A stretch of DNA of 64,000 bases, taken from the NCBI GenBank assembly GCA_013177825.1, contig JABLXX010000009.1, positions 62,001-126,000 on the forward strand, read 5' to 3'. The notes under the pieces are model-generated. The model worked only from the letters and a program-made list of their open reading frames with translations. It did no database searches and was not told the DNA's origin. Both the position numbers and the translations under genes were made by a program. Source of the stretch: Syntrophaceae bacterium. GTDB lineage: Bacteria; Desulfobacterota; Syntrophia; Syntrophales; PHBD01. How positions within the stretch are numbered: position 1 is the first letter of the stretch; each line of letters begins with the position of its first letter. Shown one piece after another: positions 12,827 through 19,425 of this stretch.

Positions 12827-13030
12827 GGAGGAAATCCGTACTTTTCCGCGGGATTCGCGCGTTCACAAAGACATCACGAACAGCCCGGTGAAAATGCCGC
12901 CTTTATGGTGAAAACCCCCGGTTGTGACGCCCCTAGTTAAAAAATCCTCTTCTCAGAGGGAGCTATGTTAAGTATGCTTACATTATTCATTACAATATCT
13001 TCGGCATACAGGATTCCGTAACGCTTTCAA

Positions 13031-13046
13031 TGGTCCGACATTTGCA
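13031..13046 (+). promoter_or_regulatory. Sigma-54 (RpoN) promoter of the minor-pilin operon
   Basis: TGGTCCGACATTTGCA has the invariant GG (-24) and GC (-12) exactly ten bases apart and agrees with TGGYACG-N4-TTGCW at all but one core base. The predicted start is near 13057, which is the 5' edge of the riboswitch aptamer. Such promoters need an enhancer-binding activator; PilR-type proteins are the usual ones for pilus genes. Confidence 0.7.
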
Positions 13047-13056
13047 AGTCTCGTCA

Positions 13057-13152
13057 CGATGCCTGCAGAGGCAAACTGTCCGAAAGGGCAGGACGCAAAG
13101 CCAGCGGCCTACGTCTTGTAAAGGGATATGGCGGCAGGGTTGCCGGGCGCCA
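13057..13152 (+). ncRNA. GEMM-I cyclic-di-GMP riboswitch aptamer
   Basis: The conserved core is easy to read: GGCAAAC, then helix P2 (13076-13081 with 13086-13091) capped by a GAAA tetraloop, then GGACGCAAAGCC (13091-13102), GCGGCCTA, and the 3' part ATGGCGGCAGGGTTGCCGGG (13128-13147). The A that stacks between the ligand bases is 13097. The position matching G20 of the V. cholerae Vc2 aptamer is G (13070), which favours c-di-GMP over 3',3'-cGAMP; the G20A change marks the Geobacter cGAMP class. Outer ends are approximate. It precedes the DsbC-like, minor pilin and PilY1 genes. Confidence 0.88.
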
Positions 13153-13200
13153 ACAGTCAACACCATGATTTCATAACTCCGGGAAACTTCCGTTGACTGT
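13153..13200 (+). promoter_or_regulatory. Possible riboswitch expression platform (long-range inverted repeat)
   Basis: ACAGTCAAC (13153-13161) pairs perfectly with GTTGACTGT (13192-13200) across a 30-base loop, directly behind the aptamer. No U-tract follows, so it is not a simple terminator; it may compete with the aptamer's closing helix. Confidence 0.4.
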
Positions 13201-13354
13201 CCGGATACCCCTCCATTATCCCCTTAAGTCGTTTCCACGACAAACCAGGGAGTCCACTCTACGGAGACGCTTCTTGATTTTGATGCTGGGATATGAGAAT
13301 ATTTGGCTAATTTCAATCATATCCCCATTCACAGGGAGGTCAAGGAGCATGCCG

Positions 13355-14155
13355 ATGACGCTGTTTTCTCACAAGTCGATCATGATGCGAATCATTCCTT
13401 TTGTTCTTCTGGTTCTCGTTTTCAGTCTTCCTGCTTTGGCAAGCGCCCAGGATCGCCCAATGGCAAAAGATCCTTGTTCGTCCATGACAGAAGCCGATTT
13501 GCGAGTCGTTTTTGATAAGATACAATCGGGTATCCACATCCTGTCGAATCGTCGTAGCCCGGTGGAGGGCCTCTGTGAAATCGTGCTCGGCAACAAGATG
13601 AACCCACAGGTTGTTTATCTTGACTATACGAAAAAGTATGTCCTTGCAGGATCGTTATTCGACGCCGGAAACATGACAAACCTGAGTCTGATCTCCCGAA
13701 AGGCCATCCAGGATCAATTCCGGGTTGACGTGTCAAAAATCCCGCTGGGAAACGCACTCCTGATGGGAAGTGAAACGGCAGGGGAAAAAGTCATCGTTTT
13801 TACGGATCCTGACTGTCCGTATTGCTCGTCCCTTCACCAGACCCTTCGACAAATCGTTGCAAAGCGCAAGGATGTGGCTTTTCTCATCAAGCTCCTGCCC
13901 TTGCCCATGCACAAGGACGCTTATTGGAAGTCGAAGAGCATCCTCTGCAATCGTTCTTTGAAAATGCTGGAGGACAATTTCGAGAAAAAGGAAATCCCCC
14001 GGACGGATTGCCAGACCGACGAACTGGAGAAGAATATCAAGTTTGCTGAATCATTGGAATTTGGAACACCCACGATGATCCTCCAGGACGGTTCGGTTAT
14101 TGCCGGAGCCTTACCGGAGGATGAATTGCTGAGAAAACTGGATTCAAAAAAATGA
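13355..14155 (+). CDS. DsbC/DsbG-like periplasmic thiol-disulfide isomerase
   Basis: A 266-residue protein with a signal peptide ending at about ALASAQ, a small N-terminal domain with two cysteines, and a thioredoxin fold holding CPYC (C154, C157) and a cis-Pro FGTPT segment near 240. The layout is that of DsbC, which repairs wrong disulfides in exported proteins. AAGGAG lies seven bases before ATG 13355; ATG 13349 is possible. It is the first gene behind the riboswitch and overlaps the first pilin gene by ATGA. The last gene of the operon encodes a 20-cysteine adhesin, a likely client. Confidence 0.85.
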   Translation: MTLFSHKSIMMRIIPFVLLVLVFSLPALASAQDRPMAKDPCSSMTEADLRVVFDKIQSGIHILSNRRSPVEGLCEIVLGNKMNPQVVYLDYTKKYVLAGSLFDAGNMTNLSLISRKAIQDQFRVDVSKIPLGNALLMGSETAGEKVIVFTDPDCPYCSSLHQTLRQIVAKRKDVAFLIKLLPLPMHKDAYWKSKSILCNRSLKMLEDNFEKKEIPRTDCQTDELEKNIKFAESLEFGTPTMILQDGSVIAGALPEDELLRKLDSKK

Positions 14156-14661
14156 CATCAGGATATCGACAGAACTCAGCAGATCTTACTACACGATCAT
14201 CCAGAGAGATCGGCCGAGGCTTTAACACGAGGGGTTTCAGCCTCTCCGAACTCCTGATCATTATTGCCATTATCGGCATCCTTGCCGTGATTGCAGGGTA
14301 TTCATGGCAGCGTTACGTTACGAATGCCAATCTGCGTTCCGCCGCCCGCGAGATTGCCTCTGATTTCTCCATGGCAAGGGAAAAAGCCCTCAAGGAGAAT
14401 CAGAACTTCACCATCACCTTCGACGTTACGGCCAACCAGTATACAATCTCTCCAGGGGCAACCGTAAAAAAGCCGACATTCTTTGGTTCGGACATCAGCC
14501 TCACCGGAGCCAATTTCGGGATTGGCGGAACGACCATCACGTTTTTGCCAAGGGGTACGGCATCGGCCGGCAATGTGACGCTTACCAACAGTCGCGGTTC
14601 CACGGCGACGATTGTAGTGAACATCACAGGGAAAAATTATGTTCAGTTTGCAACGCAATAA
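14152..14661 (+). CDS. Minor pilin, GspH/FimT type
   Basis: A 169-residue type IV pilin-like protein. The prepilin peptidase site RG|FSLSELLIIIAIIGILAV has the Glu at +5 and begins at about residue 28, after a leader that is longer than usual. The helix is followed by NANLRSAAREIASDFSMAREKAL, typical of FimT/GspH. Mature residues from about 70 form the globular beta domain. It is translationally coupled to the DsbC-like gene. FimT-type minor pilins prime pilus assembly at the inner membrane. Confidence 0.85.
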   Translation: MTSGYRQNSADLTTRSSREIGRGFNTRGFSLSELLIIIAIIGILAVIAGYSWQRYVTNANLRSAAREIASDFSMAREKALKENQNFTITFDVTANQYTISPGATVKKPTFFGSDISLTGANFGIGGTTITFLPRGTASAGNVTLTNSRGSTATIVVNITGKNYVQFATQ

Positions 14662-15079
14662 TCGAGGGATCGGCCTCCCGGAGGTCATCATCGCCATTTT
14701 CCTGACCACCATCGGTGTTTTAGCCATTCTGTCCCTGCAGCCCTCTGCATGGAGAACGGTAGGGCGATCCGATTTCCTGGGCCGGGCAGCTGAGATCCTC
14801 TACAAGGAACTGGACACCCGGGAAACACTTATTATGAACCCGTGCAACACCGTGACCGTTGGGACCACAACCACTTCTGTCAAGACCAGCGGCATGGCCG
14901 GAGTGATCGCCGGGGACGCCACTTATTCGGTAACCACGACGATAACCAATATTGGTACGAATGTCTGGCGGGTCACGGTCCGGGTCACCTGGCCGATCAA
15001 CACAAGGGGAATCTCCGAGAGCCTGGTGGTAACTCGACAGGAGAAGTTTCGATTCCCGGAGGGATGCCCAAGCGTATGA
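14639..15079 (+). CDS. Minor pilin, PilV type
   Basis: A 146-residue pilin-like protein with a short leader, cleavage site RG|IGLPEVIIAIFLTTIGV (the Glu at +5 is present) and a Thr/Val-rich C-terminal domain containing two cysteines (MNPCN and EGCPSV) that could form a disulfide. It overlaps the FimT-like gene by 23 bases and the PilW-like gene by ATGA. PilV-type minor pilins sit in the tip complex with PilW, PilX and PilY1. Confidence 0.8.
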   Translation: MFSLQRNNRGIGLPEVIIAIFLTTIGVLAILSLQPSAWRTVGRSDFLGRAAEILYKELDTRETLIMNPCNTVTVGTTTTSVKTSGMAGVIAGDATYSVTTTITNIGTNVWRVTVRVTWPINTRGISESLVVTRQEKFRFPEGCPSV

Positions 15080-15798
15080 GAAGCCGGAAAGGTTTTACCC
15101 TCATTGAATTGCTGGTCACCATGACCATCACGGTCATTCTCATGATGGCCATCTACGGTGCAATCAACTCCGCGCAGAGGTCCACCCAGGGAATCGAGCG
15201 GAAGGTAACGGCCCAGCAGGACGCACGCGCCGCCCTTGAACTGATAGCCATGGAAATCCGAATGGCTTCCTACAACCCGAATTTCGTCACGAACATCTGG
15301 GTCGATCCGGGAAACTGCTTCAGCACCAGCGGAAACCAGACCTATCAGGGAATCCAGGCAGCCACGAACAATCTCATTACGGTTGAAATGGACATCAACG
15401 AAAACTCCGTCATTACGAACAACACGAACACGGACCCCAATGAAACGATCGCCTATGTCTATGATGCAGCCAACCAGTACGTCACCCGGACGACAAACTG
15501 TGGTACCGCGCAGCCGTTTCTCGGGGAAACCCCAGCCAGCGGCAGGCCCCGGACGGTCCGCGTCATCAACGACGTCAACGGAAACGGCGTATACGACGCG
15601 GGTGTGGACATCCCCATCTTCCGCTATTTCGACGGAAATGGAGTCGAACTGACCAGCTTTCCGGCGAATATTCCAAATATCCGGCGTATCGACATCACGC
15701 TGGCGGTGGAAACGGCGGAAATCGACCCCATGACGAACCAGAGGAGACGTCTTGTCTACTCAACCAGTGTCACTCCGAGGAACCATGTCGCCAATTGA
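15076..15798 (+). CDS. Minor pilin, PilW type
   Basis: A 240-residue prepilin with cleavage site KG|FTLIELLVTMTITVILM, followed by the AQQDARAALELIAMEIRMA helix typical of PilW. The C-terminal two-thirds is a large beta-rich domain with acidic turns such as NDVNGNGVYDAGVD (about 173-186), a possible calcium-binding loop. GGAGGG lies before ATG 15076, which overlaps the PilV-like stop. Confidence 0.83.
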   Translation: MRSRKGFTLIELLVTMTITVILMMAIYGAINSAQRSTQGIERKVTAQQDARAALELIAMEIRMASYNPNFVTNIWVDPGNCFSTSGNQTYQGIQAATNNLITVEMDINENSVITNNTNTDPNETIAYVYDAANQYVTRTTNCGTAQPFLGETPASGRPRTVRVINDVNGNGVYDAGVDIPIFRYFDGNGVELTSFPANIPNIRRIDITLAVETAEIDPMTNQRRRLVYSTSVTPRNHVAN

Positions 15799-16273
15799 TT
15801 CGAAGCATCAGCAACCCCTCCCGTCGGAACGCGGGTTTGCCATGGTGGCGGCCATCATGGCCTGCCTGATTCTCCTGGCCATCGGCATGCTTGTAATCCA
15901 CCTGTCCACAGGGGATTTGCGGACCAGCACGATGACCGTGGGAGACAAGAAGGCCCTGGCCGCCGTGGAGACGGGAATACACCGGCTCATGCAGTCCTTC
16001 GATCCGGAGAACTTGTCGGCAACGACCTCCAATACCCAGGTGGACTCGAGCAACGACCCCAACTCCTACTACTCCATAGGAGCCGCGGTTTCACCCACAT
16101 CGGGGCCTTCCGTCATCCCTATGGCAGGATTCGCCATCGGGGGGGGGCAACAGTGGGGACAGGCTCGCTTTAATGTAGATATTACAGGGACTAACACCAC
16201 CTACAATTCCACCGTTACGGTCGGGATCGGTCTTGGCTTCGGCCCGGTGGAAATCAGCCTGATGCACCGTTGA
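15785..16273 (+). CDS. Minor pilin, PilX type
   Basis: A 162-residue protein with ERGFAMVAAIMACLILLAIG near the N terminus. This is the PilX_N arrangement, with a non-canonical residue where most pilins have Glu+5. The segment STGDLRTSTMTVGDKKALAAVETGI follows. I used ATG 15785 with GAGG just upstream; an in-frame TTG at 15752 is a weaker choice. It overlaps the PilW-like gene by 14 bases. PilX helps place PilY1 at the pilus tip. Confidence 0.8.
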   Translation: MSPIDSKHQQPLPSERGFAMVAAIMACLILLAIGMLVIHLSTGDLRTSTMTVGDKKALAAVETGIHRLMQSFDPENLSATTSNTQVDSSNDPNSYYSIGAAVSPTSGPSVIPMAGFAIGGGQQWGQARFNVDITGTNTTYNSTVTVGIGLGFGPVEISLMHR

Positions 16274-16290
16274 AATCCGGAGGAGTATGT

Positions 16291-19200
16291 ATGAAGCGTT
16301 CGGCTTTGTTCTTTATGATCATGATCCTTGTATGTTTCCTGCCCACCGTGGTCATCGCCCAGGATGATGAGGACGAATCGGCGCTGTTCACATCCCTGGC
16401 GCCGGACGCACTGATCGTTCTCGACCTGTCGGGAAGCATGAACTGGGCCGCCGCCGGGGAATACATGTACGCGGCCAGTTGTTCCTCCGATGGGCCGTTT
16501 TACAACGATGCCGCGGCGGGTCTCGTCAAATGCACGATCAGCACGACCAATGTCCCCAAGTATGGAACAACGACGTGTGACGGCGCCTTTTATAAGGCCA
16601 GCCGGTCGGGCTACACGACCGACTGCAGCCGCCTTTCCATCGCCAAGCGGGGGCTTTTCGAGATCCTGGACGACAACAACGATACGTACATTAATACTCA
16701 AGACTCGAACAGTCTCGGCATCCGGCTAGGCTACATGCGGTATTACAATTGCGGGTCCGACGAAAGCGGCGACTATTCCAGCGGTTGCAACAAGGTCCTG
16801 AAAACCATTGATACCAAGTACAGCAATATTTATTGCGGCAGCAGTAACGAATGCAGGCCCTGGAGCACTGGGTCCAGCTCCAACATCGCCGGTGCCAGCG
16901 CCACTGGAGGAACCCCGCTGGCGGGCGCCCTGACGGAAGCCAAGGCCTACCTGAAGGCCCATCAAGATGCAGATAACGCGGCCCTCTGCCGTTCGAAATT
17001 CGCCATCCTCATCACCGACGGCGCGGATACCTTCGCCTGCAGTGGCAACGGGCAGGAAAACCAGGTGGACCAGTACAAGCGCCGGAGGGCCTTCGTGGAG
17101 AAGGCCCGGGCCCTATCCGCCGCCGGCTATCGCACCTTCGTGATCGGCTTCGGCGCGGCCATGCCCCACTTCCTCAAGAATACGCTGAACTGGGCTGCTT
17201 ACCTCGGTGGCACGGACAACCCTCAGTCAACCAATGCAGGGGACCCTACAACGTACACCGAAGTGTCATCCCCGTGTACGACCGTAACCGTCACCAGCGG
17301 AAGCCAGTGCCTCGCCACGGCGGATTACAATGCAGCCAACTCCATCTGTTACCACACCCTGACGGGTGAAGATGCCCATTATTATTCGCCAAACGACCCC
17401 GGGGAACTGTCCCTGTCCGGGTACGCGTTCATCGCCTCAAACCCCAACGAGTTGTCCACCGCCCTCAAAGCGGCGTTCACCATCATCCGTGAAGCCACCT
17501 ATTCCTTTTCCCAGGCATCCGTCCAGTCAACCCGAACCCAGGACGAGAATTACATCTATGAAGGTTCCTTCCAGCCCGTGACGAATGATCCCTTCTGGCT
17601 CGGCCACCTGAAAAAATACAACATCAACACCGACGGAACCGTCGGAAGCATCGTCTGGGATGCCGGCACCATCCTTCAGTCGCGTGGGGCCGACACCCGG
17701 ACCATGTATACATACGTTGGAGGAGCCCTGACGTCCTTCACGACGAGTATCGGCCGAACATATTTCAATGCCGATTCGGACACCGAACGAAACAGCATTG
17801 TGGGATACATGCGAGGAGAAACCGCTTACAATTTCGACTACTGGAAGCTGGGGGACGTGTTCCGTTCCAACCCGATCACCATCAGCACACCATCTTCCTT
17901 TTTTAACGACACCCGCGACGCCAACAATGCCTTTTCCACATTCCGCTCGGGCCACTCAAGGACATCGGCCATCGGAAACCGGGTCATCCTTGCCGGGGCC
18001 AACGACGCCCAGATGCACGCCTTCAAGACGAGCGATGGCGCTGAGGCCTGGAGCTTCATCCCACCGAATTTCCTGTATCGCCTCAAGTCAATCGCCCATT
18101 CTTCCCATCCCACCCTGCTGGCCCACGCCTATTATGTGGACGGACAGGTAACCGTGTCCGAATACTGGACCGGTTCCGGCGACGGCACCAGCAAGACGTC
18201 CACCGACTGGAAGACGATCCTCGTCTTCGGCGAGGGGCGAGGCGGCAGCTCGACCCTGTGGAGTTCATCCGCATCCTGTGACAGCGGCTTCAACTCCGCG
18301 TACACCTCAACGTACTCCAACTACTGCGGTTTCTATGCCCTGAACGTAACGACTCCGTTGACTCCGACATACCTGTGGCGTATCATGCCCACCAGCACCC
18401 AGGCGCCATACCTGGGAGATCCCTGGAGCAGAATGCAGATCGGACGAGTCAGCGTCCTGGGAAATGAGAAATGGGTGGGCTTTGTCGGAGCCGGCTATAA
18501 CGCCTCCGACTGCTCCGGTGGCGGTACCTGCGACACGCGGGGAAAGGGATTCTTCATCATCGACCTGGCTGACGGTTCCGTCTTGTGGAGTTACACCCTG
18601 TTGAACAATACAAACATGAACTATAGCTTCCCGGCACCTCCGGCCATCGCCGACACGGACAACGACAATTTTATCGATACGGTTTACATCGGAGACTTGG
18701 GTGGAAGCATGTGGCGTTTCAAAATGTGCTCAGCCGCCGATCTGGCCAGTAGCCCATACTGTACGACATCGAGTTGGTCGGGAAACTTTCTTTTTGCCTC
18801 CTCCACCGGTACCATCCGGCCCATCTTCACGAGTCCGGCCGTTGCGAAAGACAAGCAGAACAATCTCTGGGTGTACTGGGGTACGGGTGACAAATCGGAT
18901 CCGACGGCAGCAAACGCCCAGGAAAAGTTCTTCGGCGTTAAGGACAACGACCGTACCACATCATACGGGATCAGCAACCTTGAAAACATCACGACAGGCA
19001 CCTACGACACCGCCTCGACCACGAAGGTGGGATGGTACATCAACCTCGCCGGCCAGGGTGAAAAGATGCTTGCCGACCCCACCGTGTACGGCGGTGTTGT
19101 TTATTTTACATCCTACACCCCCCCGATCGGGAACGACCTCTGTTCCCAGGCCGGAACGGCAACACTCTACGGCGTAAATTACACAACGGGCGGCGCAGCT

Positions 19201-19425
19201 CTTACGACCAGCACGGGAACAGCCCGTAGCATCACACTCGGTGTAGGGATTCCTTCGGCGCCAGTTATCTCCCTGAAGCCGGGCTCATCACCGGTGCCAG
19301 ATCTCTACGTCACCGTCAGTGGCGGGGCCGGTACAGGCGCCAGCACGACTCGGGCAGACATCAACCCCGTATCACCATCCAATCGCACGAACATGCTCTA
19401 CTGGAGGGACCGGCGCCTGCAATAA
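16291..19425 (+). CDS. pilY1: PilY1-like type IV pilus tip adhesin with von Willebrand A domain
   Basis: A 1044-residue exported protein with a signal peptide of about 24 residues. A von Willebrand A domain (about 39-390) has the metal site DLSGS at 45-49 and ILITDGAD. The C-terminal half is the PilY1 beta-propeller: ILAGANDAQMHAFKTSDG, FGEGRGGS, and TVYIGDLGGSMWRF preceded by an EF-hand-like calcium loop DTDNDNFID at 788-796. The mature chain has 20 cysteines. GGAGGAG lies five bases before ATG 16291. In Pseudomonas and Myxococcus PilY1 acts in pilus extension, adhesion and surface sensing. This is the last gene of the riboswitch operon. Confidence 0.92.
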   Translation: MKRSALFFMIMILVCFLPTVVIAQDDEDESALFTSLAPDALIVLDLSGSMNWAAAGEYMYAASCSSDGPFYNDAAAGLVKCTISTTNVPKYGTTTCDGAFYKASRSGYTTDCSRLSIAKRGLFEILDDNNDTYINTQDSNSLGIRLGYMRYYNCGSDESGDYSSGCNKVLKTIDTKYSNIYCGSSNECRPWSTGSSSNIAGASATGGTPLAGALTEAKAYLKAHQDADNAALCRSKFAILITDGADTFACSGNGQENQVDQYKRRRAFVEKARALSAAGYRTFVIGFGAAMPHFLKNTLNWAAYLGGTDNPQSTNAGDPTTYTEVSSPCTTVTVTSGSQCLATADYNAANSICYHTLTGEDAHYYSPNDPGELSLSGYAFIASNPNELSTALKAAFTIIREATYSFSQASVQSTRTQDENYIYEGSFQPVTNDPFWLGHLKKYNINTDGTVGSIVWDAGTILQSRGADTRTMYTYVGGALTSFTTSIGRTYFNADSDTERNSIVGYMRGETAYNFDYWKLGDVFRSNPITISTPSSFFNDTRDANNAFSTFRSGHSRTSAIGNRVILAGANDAQMHAFKTSDGAEAWSFIPPNFLYRLKSIAHSSHPTLLAHAYYVDGQVTVSEYWTGSGDGTSKTSTDWKTILVFGEGRGGSSTLWSSSASCDSGFNSAYTSTYSNYCGFYALNVTTPLTPTYLWRIMPTSTQAPYLGDPWSRMQIGRVSVLGNEKWVGFVGAGYNASDCSGGGTCDTRGKGFFIIDLADGSVLWSYTLLNNTNMNYSFPAPPAIADTDNDNFIDTVYIGDLGGSMWRFKMCSAADLASSPYCTTSSWSGNFLFASSTGTIRPIFTSPAVAKDKQNNLWVYWGTGDKSDPTAANAQEKFFGVKDNDRTTSYGISNLENITTGTYDTASTTKVGWYINLAGQGEKMLADPTVYGGVVYFTSYTPPIGNDLCSQAGTATLYGVNYTTGGAALTTSTGTARSITLGVGIPSAPVISLKPGSSPVPDLYVTVSGGAGTGASTTRADINPVSPSNRTNMLYWRDRRLQ

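Follow-up and report, generated by a model that had tools for sequence, protein, structure and literature searches.

The window, the whole 64-kb stretch of DNA that was analysed, carries on its forward strand a run of genes that begins with a DsbC-like periplasmic thiol isomerase (13355-14155; DsbC_N and Thioredoxin_2 domains), the ribosome site of which is located at 13342-13347. It is followed by a GspH/FimT-type minor pilin (14152-14661; PF12019, PF07963), a PilV-like minor pilin without Pfam match that was named from its position and N-terminus (14639-15079), a PilW-like minor pilin (15076-15798) whose N_methyl motif was identified at residues 79-105 of the longer open reading frame 14842-15798, a PilX-like protein, also without Pfam match and named by position (15782-16273), and the pilus-tip protein PilY1 (16288-19425; PF05567). 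GspH, N_methyl (twice) and T4P_PilY1 thus occur in one gene run, as is characteristic of a type IV minor pilin-PilY1 operon, and the sequence-only reading of this DNA, which had described a DsbC-minor pilin-PilY1 operon, was right in outline. A pilM-PilP-secretin cluster resides beside the operon in convergent orientation.

The leader contains a c-di-GMP-I riboswitch

The region ahead of the operon harbors a c-di-GMP-I (GEMM-I) aptamer at 13060-13147 of the forward strand. This aptamer had been called from the sequence-only reading together with the proposal of a covariance search, and such a search bore it out: RF01051 matched with 66.7 bits (E 7e-11, cut-off 35) over positions 1-87 of the 87-position model, and it is the only RF01051 match in the 4.24-Mb genome. 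In the RF01051 alignment, a G occupies the selectivity position at 13070 and a GAAA tetraloop lies at 13082-13085, while the equivalents of A47 and C92 would be located at 13097 and about 13143, respectively. These residue equivalences, including those to Vc2 numbering, were deduced in part from the alignment and in part from a study of the Geobacter switches (PMC9262584). The alignment accordingly places the ligand-contacting G, A and C as well as the tetraloop and its receptor as in a c-di-GMP-I riboswitch, and P1 is most plausibly formed by GCCUG (13061-13065) and CGGGC (13144-13148). With the RF01051 class the aptamer shares its full length, the GAAA tetraloop, the selectivity G and the GACGCAAA core; it is unlike the class in being fed by a -24/-12 element that abuts P1 and in having no intrinsic terminator downstream. 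The 3' part of the aptamer, TGGCGGCAGGGTTGCC at 13129-13144, mimics a GG-N10-GC sigma-54 site, and pseudo-matches of this kind can mislead promoter scans.

The genome contains 17 GGDEF matches above cut-off; in one of the corresponding stretches, no GGDEF frame could be read. In the readable domains, with one exception, the guanine-contacting position is occupied by Asp or by some residue other than Ser, and an intact Hypr-type GGDEF, with Ser in place of this Asp, was not found among them. The exception is a short GGDDF-type domain (L309, G000:C6:244790-245170) that has Ser at the Hypr position and Ala instead of Asn, and which is probably degenerate. Since the selectivity position is G, not A, and since the readable domains include no intact Hypr-type enzyme, c-di-GMP is the likely ligand according to the sequence. 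An aptamer that senses 3',3'-cGAMP instead would have a counterpart in Geobacter, of the same phylum, where the pilus-associated GEMM switch pilM responds to cGAMP, and the selectivity base acts as a selectivity factor rather than an absolute filter (PMC9262584); given the two features named above, we nevertheless regard sensing of cGAMP as very unlikely.

A sigma-54-type element is located directly upstream of the aptamer

Immediately ahead of the aptamer, a sigma-54-type -24/-12 element, TGGTCCGACATTTGCA, was identified at 13031-13046 of the forward strand, with GG at 13032-13033, ten intervening bases and GC at 13044-13045. Transcription is predicted to start at about 13057, 12 nt after the C of the -12 element, so that four bases of the predicted RNA would precede stem P1. 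The GG-N10-GC promoter with a start near 13057 just before P1 had been proposed earlier, and by sequence its coordinates and spacing are correct; the two signals, described as stacked within 30 bases, are separated by only 14 bases between the -12 C and aptamer position 1. The genome encodes a single rpoN (one Sigma54_DBD match) and has 40 Sigma54_activat matches.

As a motif by itself, the element does not significantly exceed chance. The window contains a single match to the pattern TGGYNYRNNNNTTGCW, versus 0.26 expected, and the genome 27, versus 29 matches for a reversed-pattern control. A weight matrix trained on sites from other genomes ranked TGGTCCGACATTTGCA second among the 127,970 16-mers of the window, yet with a score at the weak end of the training range. 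GG, GC and TTGCA are exact, and two deviations from the TGGCAC-N5-TTGC-like context occur at -23 and -22, where the element has T and C instead of the usual C and A. The window element is weaker than its counterparts elsewhere and could be inactive. As the genome count is similar to that of the reversed control, weight was placed on position and conservation, and these decide that the element exceeds chance.

In the sister species G001, the one additional genome that was found for the genus, TGGTCTAACAATTGCA is located at the same distance from the aptamer; the three differences from the window element all fall at spacer positions, leaving GG, TTGC and the next A unchanged. The DsbC-like gene has 17 close orthologs in the order, and eight of them possess an RF01051 match in the leader. 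TGG[CT]-N7-TTGC is present upstream of the aptamer in all eight of these riboswitch leaders, which constitute two families and not eight independent events, and in none of the nine riboswitch-less orthologs. The second family (f16) has near-consensus elements (TGGCATGTTGATTGCA and similar) about 68-158 nt before aptamer position 1, compared to 14 nt in the window; the pairing of promoter and riboswitch is kept while the distance varies. The combination of sigma-54-type element and riboswitch proposed in the sequence-only reading is, accordingly, a real arrangement that is kept in all orthologs with a leader riboswitch, and which is statistically coupled elsewhere (see below). In four of the riboswitch-less orthologs (L134, L136, L137, L139), a consensus-like sigma-70 promoter, TTGACA-N16/17-TATAGT or TATAAA, was read from the sequences in its place; a constitutive promoter might thus have replaced the sigma-54/riboswitch module, or the exchange might have run the other way. 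A further GEMM-I aptamer (L135:261-351) lies upstream of a DsbC-like ortholog at a distance of over 1 kb, ahead of another gene, and was left out of the eight.

These data also bear on the question of whether a genuine riboswitch might be read from a sigma-70 or other promoter, the GG-N10-GC being coincidental in the genus. The lack of enrichment of the motif alone and the weak matrix score would be in agreement with such a coincidence; against it stand the GG/TTGCA kept at a fixed distance in G001, the -24/-12 element in eight of eight riboswitch orthologs and a promoter scan that found no sigma-70-like site on the forward strand upstream of the aptamer. We therefore consider it unlikely, at roughly one chance in four, and retain the sigma-54 element as the probable origin of the riboswitch transcript.

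A search for an activator site upstream yielded nothing beyond a direct repeat, two copies of GGTGAAAA 20 bp apart (12887-12914, forward strand), which is suggestive at best. The repeat resides at about -170 to -143 relative to the predicted start, and both copies are identical in G001. It might, speculatively, be a weak candidate for an activator site and could equally serve the divergent TPR gene.

A predicted anti-aptamer helix would compete with P1

Downstream, the centroid fold predicts an anti-aptamer helix (13137-13210, forward strand), the 5' side of which consists of GGGTTGCCGG (13137-13146) and CAGTCAAC (13154-13161) and the 3' side of GTTGACTG (13192-13199), CCGG, and ACCC up to 13210. 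The helix excludes P1 and captures the C that is expected to pair with the ligand. This complementarity recurs in G001 and six second-family leaders, in the window genus as GGGT..CCGG....CAGTCAAC with GTTGACTG.CCGG..ACCC and in the other family as GGCAGGGTT-GCC-GGACG with CGTCT-G-AACCCTGCC, and the downstream strand competing with P1 is conserved in all eight leaders. Compensatory pair changes were not seen in the helix among the eight leaders, because the sequence of the helix's 5' strand is dictated by the aptamer.

Between aptamer and gene, no intrinsic terminator or terminator-like site was found on the forward strand and no U-tract follows the helix, and an intrinsic-terminator platform was rejected on these grounds. 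The output may therefore be exerted by Rho-dependent termination or at the level of translation by exposure of the ribosome site. In the window genus only, GCTTCTTGATT (13269-13279) can pair in the long RNA with GGTCAAGGAGC (13338-13348), which would hide the ribosome site. Fold prediction gives the ribosome site an unpaired probability of about 0 in the long leader and of 0.1-0.5 in a transcript that starts at 13309.

A putative second promoter follows the riboswitch

Such a shorter transcript might originate from a putative second, sigma-70-type promoter at 13274-13302 of the forward strand, consisting of TTGATT, a 17-nt spacer and TGA-GAATAT, an extended -10 element, with a start at about 13309. 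CTTGATTT is invariant in eight of eight riboswitch leaders and is accompanied by a TATGAGATA-like block at a fixed distance, in each case between riboswitch and gene; the common pattern is TTGATT, 17 nt and a -10-like hexamer preceded by TG. A consensus promoter scan did not pick up the block at 13274-13302. Judged from the sequence, these blocks are probably a sigma-70-type promoter that bypasses both the sigma-54 promoter and the riboswitch. The sequence-only reading had concluded that the operon would need an RpoN activator; in view of the putative bypass promoter, this claim is probably too strong, and a strict requirement for RpoN is unlikely.

The requirement would hold if the CTTGATTT block instead belonged to the expression platform or served as a protein operator, and the sigma-54 promoter were the sole one. 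In the window genus, the ribosome site is a predicted pairing partner of the block, within which an inverted repeat, GATATGA/TCATATC, is also located. However, it is conserved also in the other family, in which pairing with the ribosome site is impossible, and its 17-nt spacing to the extended -10-like block is constant. A function other than that of a promoter appears doubtful to us, with perhaps a quarter of the weight on its side, and we continue to favor a second, sigma-70-type promoter.

Sigma-54 elements and GEMM-I aptamers are coupled in other bacteria

The arrangement is not confined to the DsbC-pilin-PilY1 operon. We analysed 138 c-di-GMP-I aptamers whose upstream sequence was long enough, drawn from 85 genomes of the order and the phylum; the sample was picked blind to the promoter and is biased towards stronger aptamer matches. 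In 31 of these 138 Desulfobacterota aptamers, the 220 nt upstream contain a -24/-12 match of at least 10 of 12, as opposed to 1.3 expected from shuffled sequence; the opposite strand gave 4, and a window located 440-660 nt upstream gave 2 among 131. Matches of at least 11 of 12 numbered 26, compared to 0.2 in shuffled sequence, 3 on the other strand and none at 440-660 nt. The 60 nt adjoining the aptamer contain 24 matches, all on the coding strand, as compared to 0-5 in every other 60-nt bin. The Desulfobacterota matches are spread over 28 genomes, and the predicted start precedes the aptamer in every one of them. In the Rokubacteria class, 27 of 30 aptamers have a -24/-12 element (0.4 expected); the counts ignore shared ancestry, and this second group belongs to another phylum. 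The class of Neobacillus (Bacilli), serving as a control, gave a single match among 30 aptamers, and none with at least 11 of 12. A scan of all genomes for TGG-N8-TTGC, 12-42 nt and the GEMM core returned 63 loci, chiefly from Rokubacteria and Desulfobacterota, and none of them has a spacer of 12-16 nt, a length that would encroach on P1. Cultured bacteria with stacked sites include delta proteobacterium NaphS2 (L064) and Desulfosarcina alkanivorans (L041).

In the Rokubacteria class (L264-L292 and L101), element and aptamer are separated by 19-61 nt (once 129) in the 27 of 30 cases, and the start codon is located about 50-70 nt past most aptamers, resulting in a strikingly uniform cassette. 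Some aptamers have -24/-12 matches downstream, which were traced to Flp-type pilin coding sequence or to one family of the order and were rejected. In four genomes from one family of the order (L005, L013, L030, L183), a conserved, sigma-54-like GGGCATGCTTCTTGCT lies about 125-160 nt past the GEMM-I aptamer; it might be either a post-riboswitch promoter or conserved coding sequence. Four further GEMM-I aptamers (L160, L178, L247, L255), from one family of the phylum, are located directly ahead of Flp-type pilin genes.

Among the genes downstream of the combined elements in Desulfobacterota, those for secreted FN3/PKD proteins predominate (PF00041 in 12 of 28 downstream genes); five targets are the DsbC-like first genes of pilus operons, and multihaem cytochromes and a pilin also occur. 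In Rokubacteria, FN3-like secreted proteins are among the targets, as is a type IV pilin. We consider it likely that these cases together represent a recurrent module in which initiation depends on an enhancer-binding activator and the resulting transcript is gated by c-di-GMP within about 100 nt, and which is near-obligatory in the Rokubacteria class, frequent in Desulfobacterota and governs cell-surface genes such as those for FN3 proteins, pilins, multihaem cytochromes and pilus-tip operons.

Discussion

As an explanation of the leader as a whole, we favor, with moderate confidence, a two-step control combined with a basal second promoter. Upon firing of the activator, sigma-54 RNA polymerase would initiate at about 13057, and the nascent RNA would at once fold into the GEMM-I aptamer. 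c-di-GMP would then decide whether the 3' strand of the aptamer is kept in P1 or captured by the anti-aptamer helix, a choice that would set the yield of full-length or translatable mRNA. Independent of both signals, the sigma-70-type promoter starting at about 13309 would provide a basal supply of the DsbC-minor pilin-PilY1 products. c-di-GMP usually favors attachment; by this token, and by analogy with the Geobacter pilM switch, binding of c-di-GMP may turn the long transcript on, a sense that we prefer by a small degree over the opposite.

FleQ provides a precedent for an activator that itself binds c-di-GMP, and if the sigma-54 activator acting here did so, both steps would read one signal. 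The 40 activator-domain matches leave room for such a protein; however, the sequence gives no sign of one and the cognate activator is only hypothetical, and we regard this possibility as improbable. Our preferred reading remains that of two separate steps.

GEMM riboswitches and sigma-54 promoters are each textbook elements that are usually studied apart. The pilM GEMM-Ib of Geobacter metallireducens is an ON-switch that binds cGAMP and uses a terminator (PMC9262584). As in the leader described here, it belongs to a pilus operon, and the ligand-pairing C is sequestered by a downstream strand in competition with P1; in contrast, the window leader has the selectivity G, neither a U-tract nor an intrinsic terminator, and a different pilus operon. 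The -24/-12 promoter ahead of surface and pilus genes is shared with type IV pilins and with RpoN-dependent genes of Geobacter, and the study on the RpoN regulon of Geobacter sulfurreducens does not mention riboswitches (PMC2725144). The dominance of secreted FN3 targets in the sigma-54 and GEMM set resembles the GEMM-regulated FN3 proteins of Geobacter bemidjiensis, as far as described in the available passages of that work, in which the promoter type is not reported (PMC2996986). RpoN promoters for GEMM riboswitches are not mentioned in the available parts of the Geobacter GEMM papers, and in a 2025 survey of sigma-54 regulons riboswitches appear only in a reference. In a literature search with most subscription journals outside its range, no work joining sigma-54 promoters with GEMM riboswitches was found. 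Thus, riboswitch and promoter class are known, and their recurrent coupling is apparently undescribed.

Should c-di-GMP-I riboswitches of whole lineages rely on sigma-54 as their standard promoter class, activators would gate the c-di-GMP output. These activators may read other signals, and the result would be a two-key lock on genes of the cell surface. Numerous surface proteins of uncultured bacteria from soil and sediment would then be under predictable control. For genomes without transcriptomes, GEMM-I matches would then mark sigma-54 starts, and, conversely, sigma-54 sites would define where riboswitch transcripts begin.
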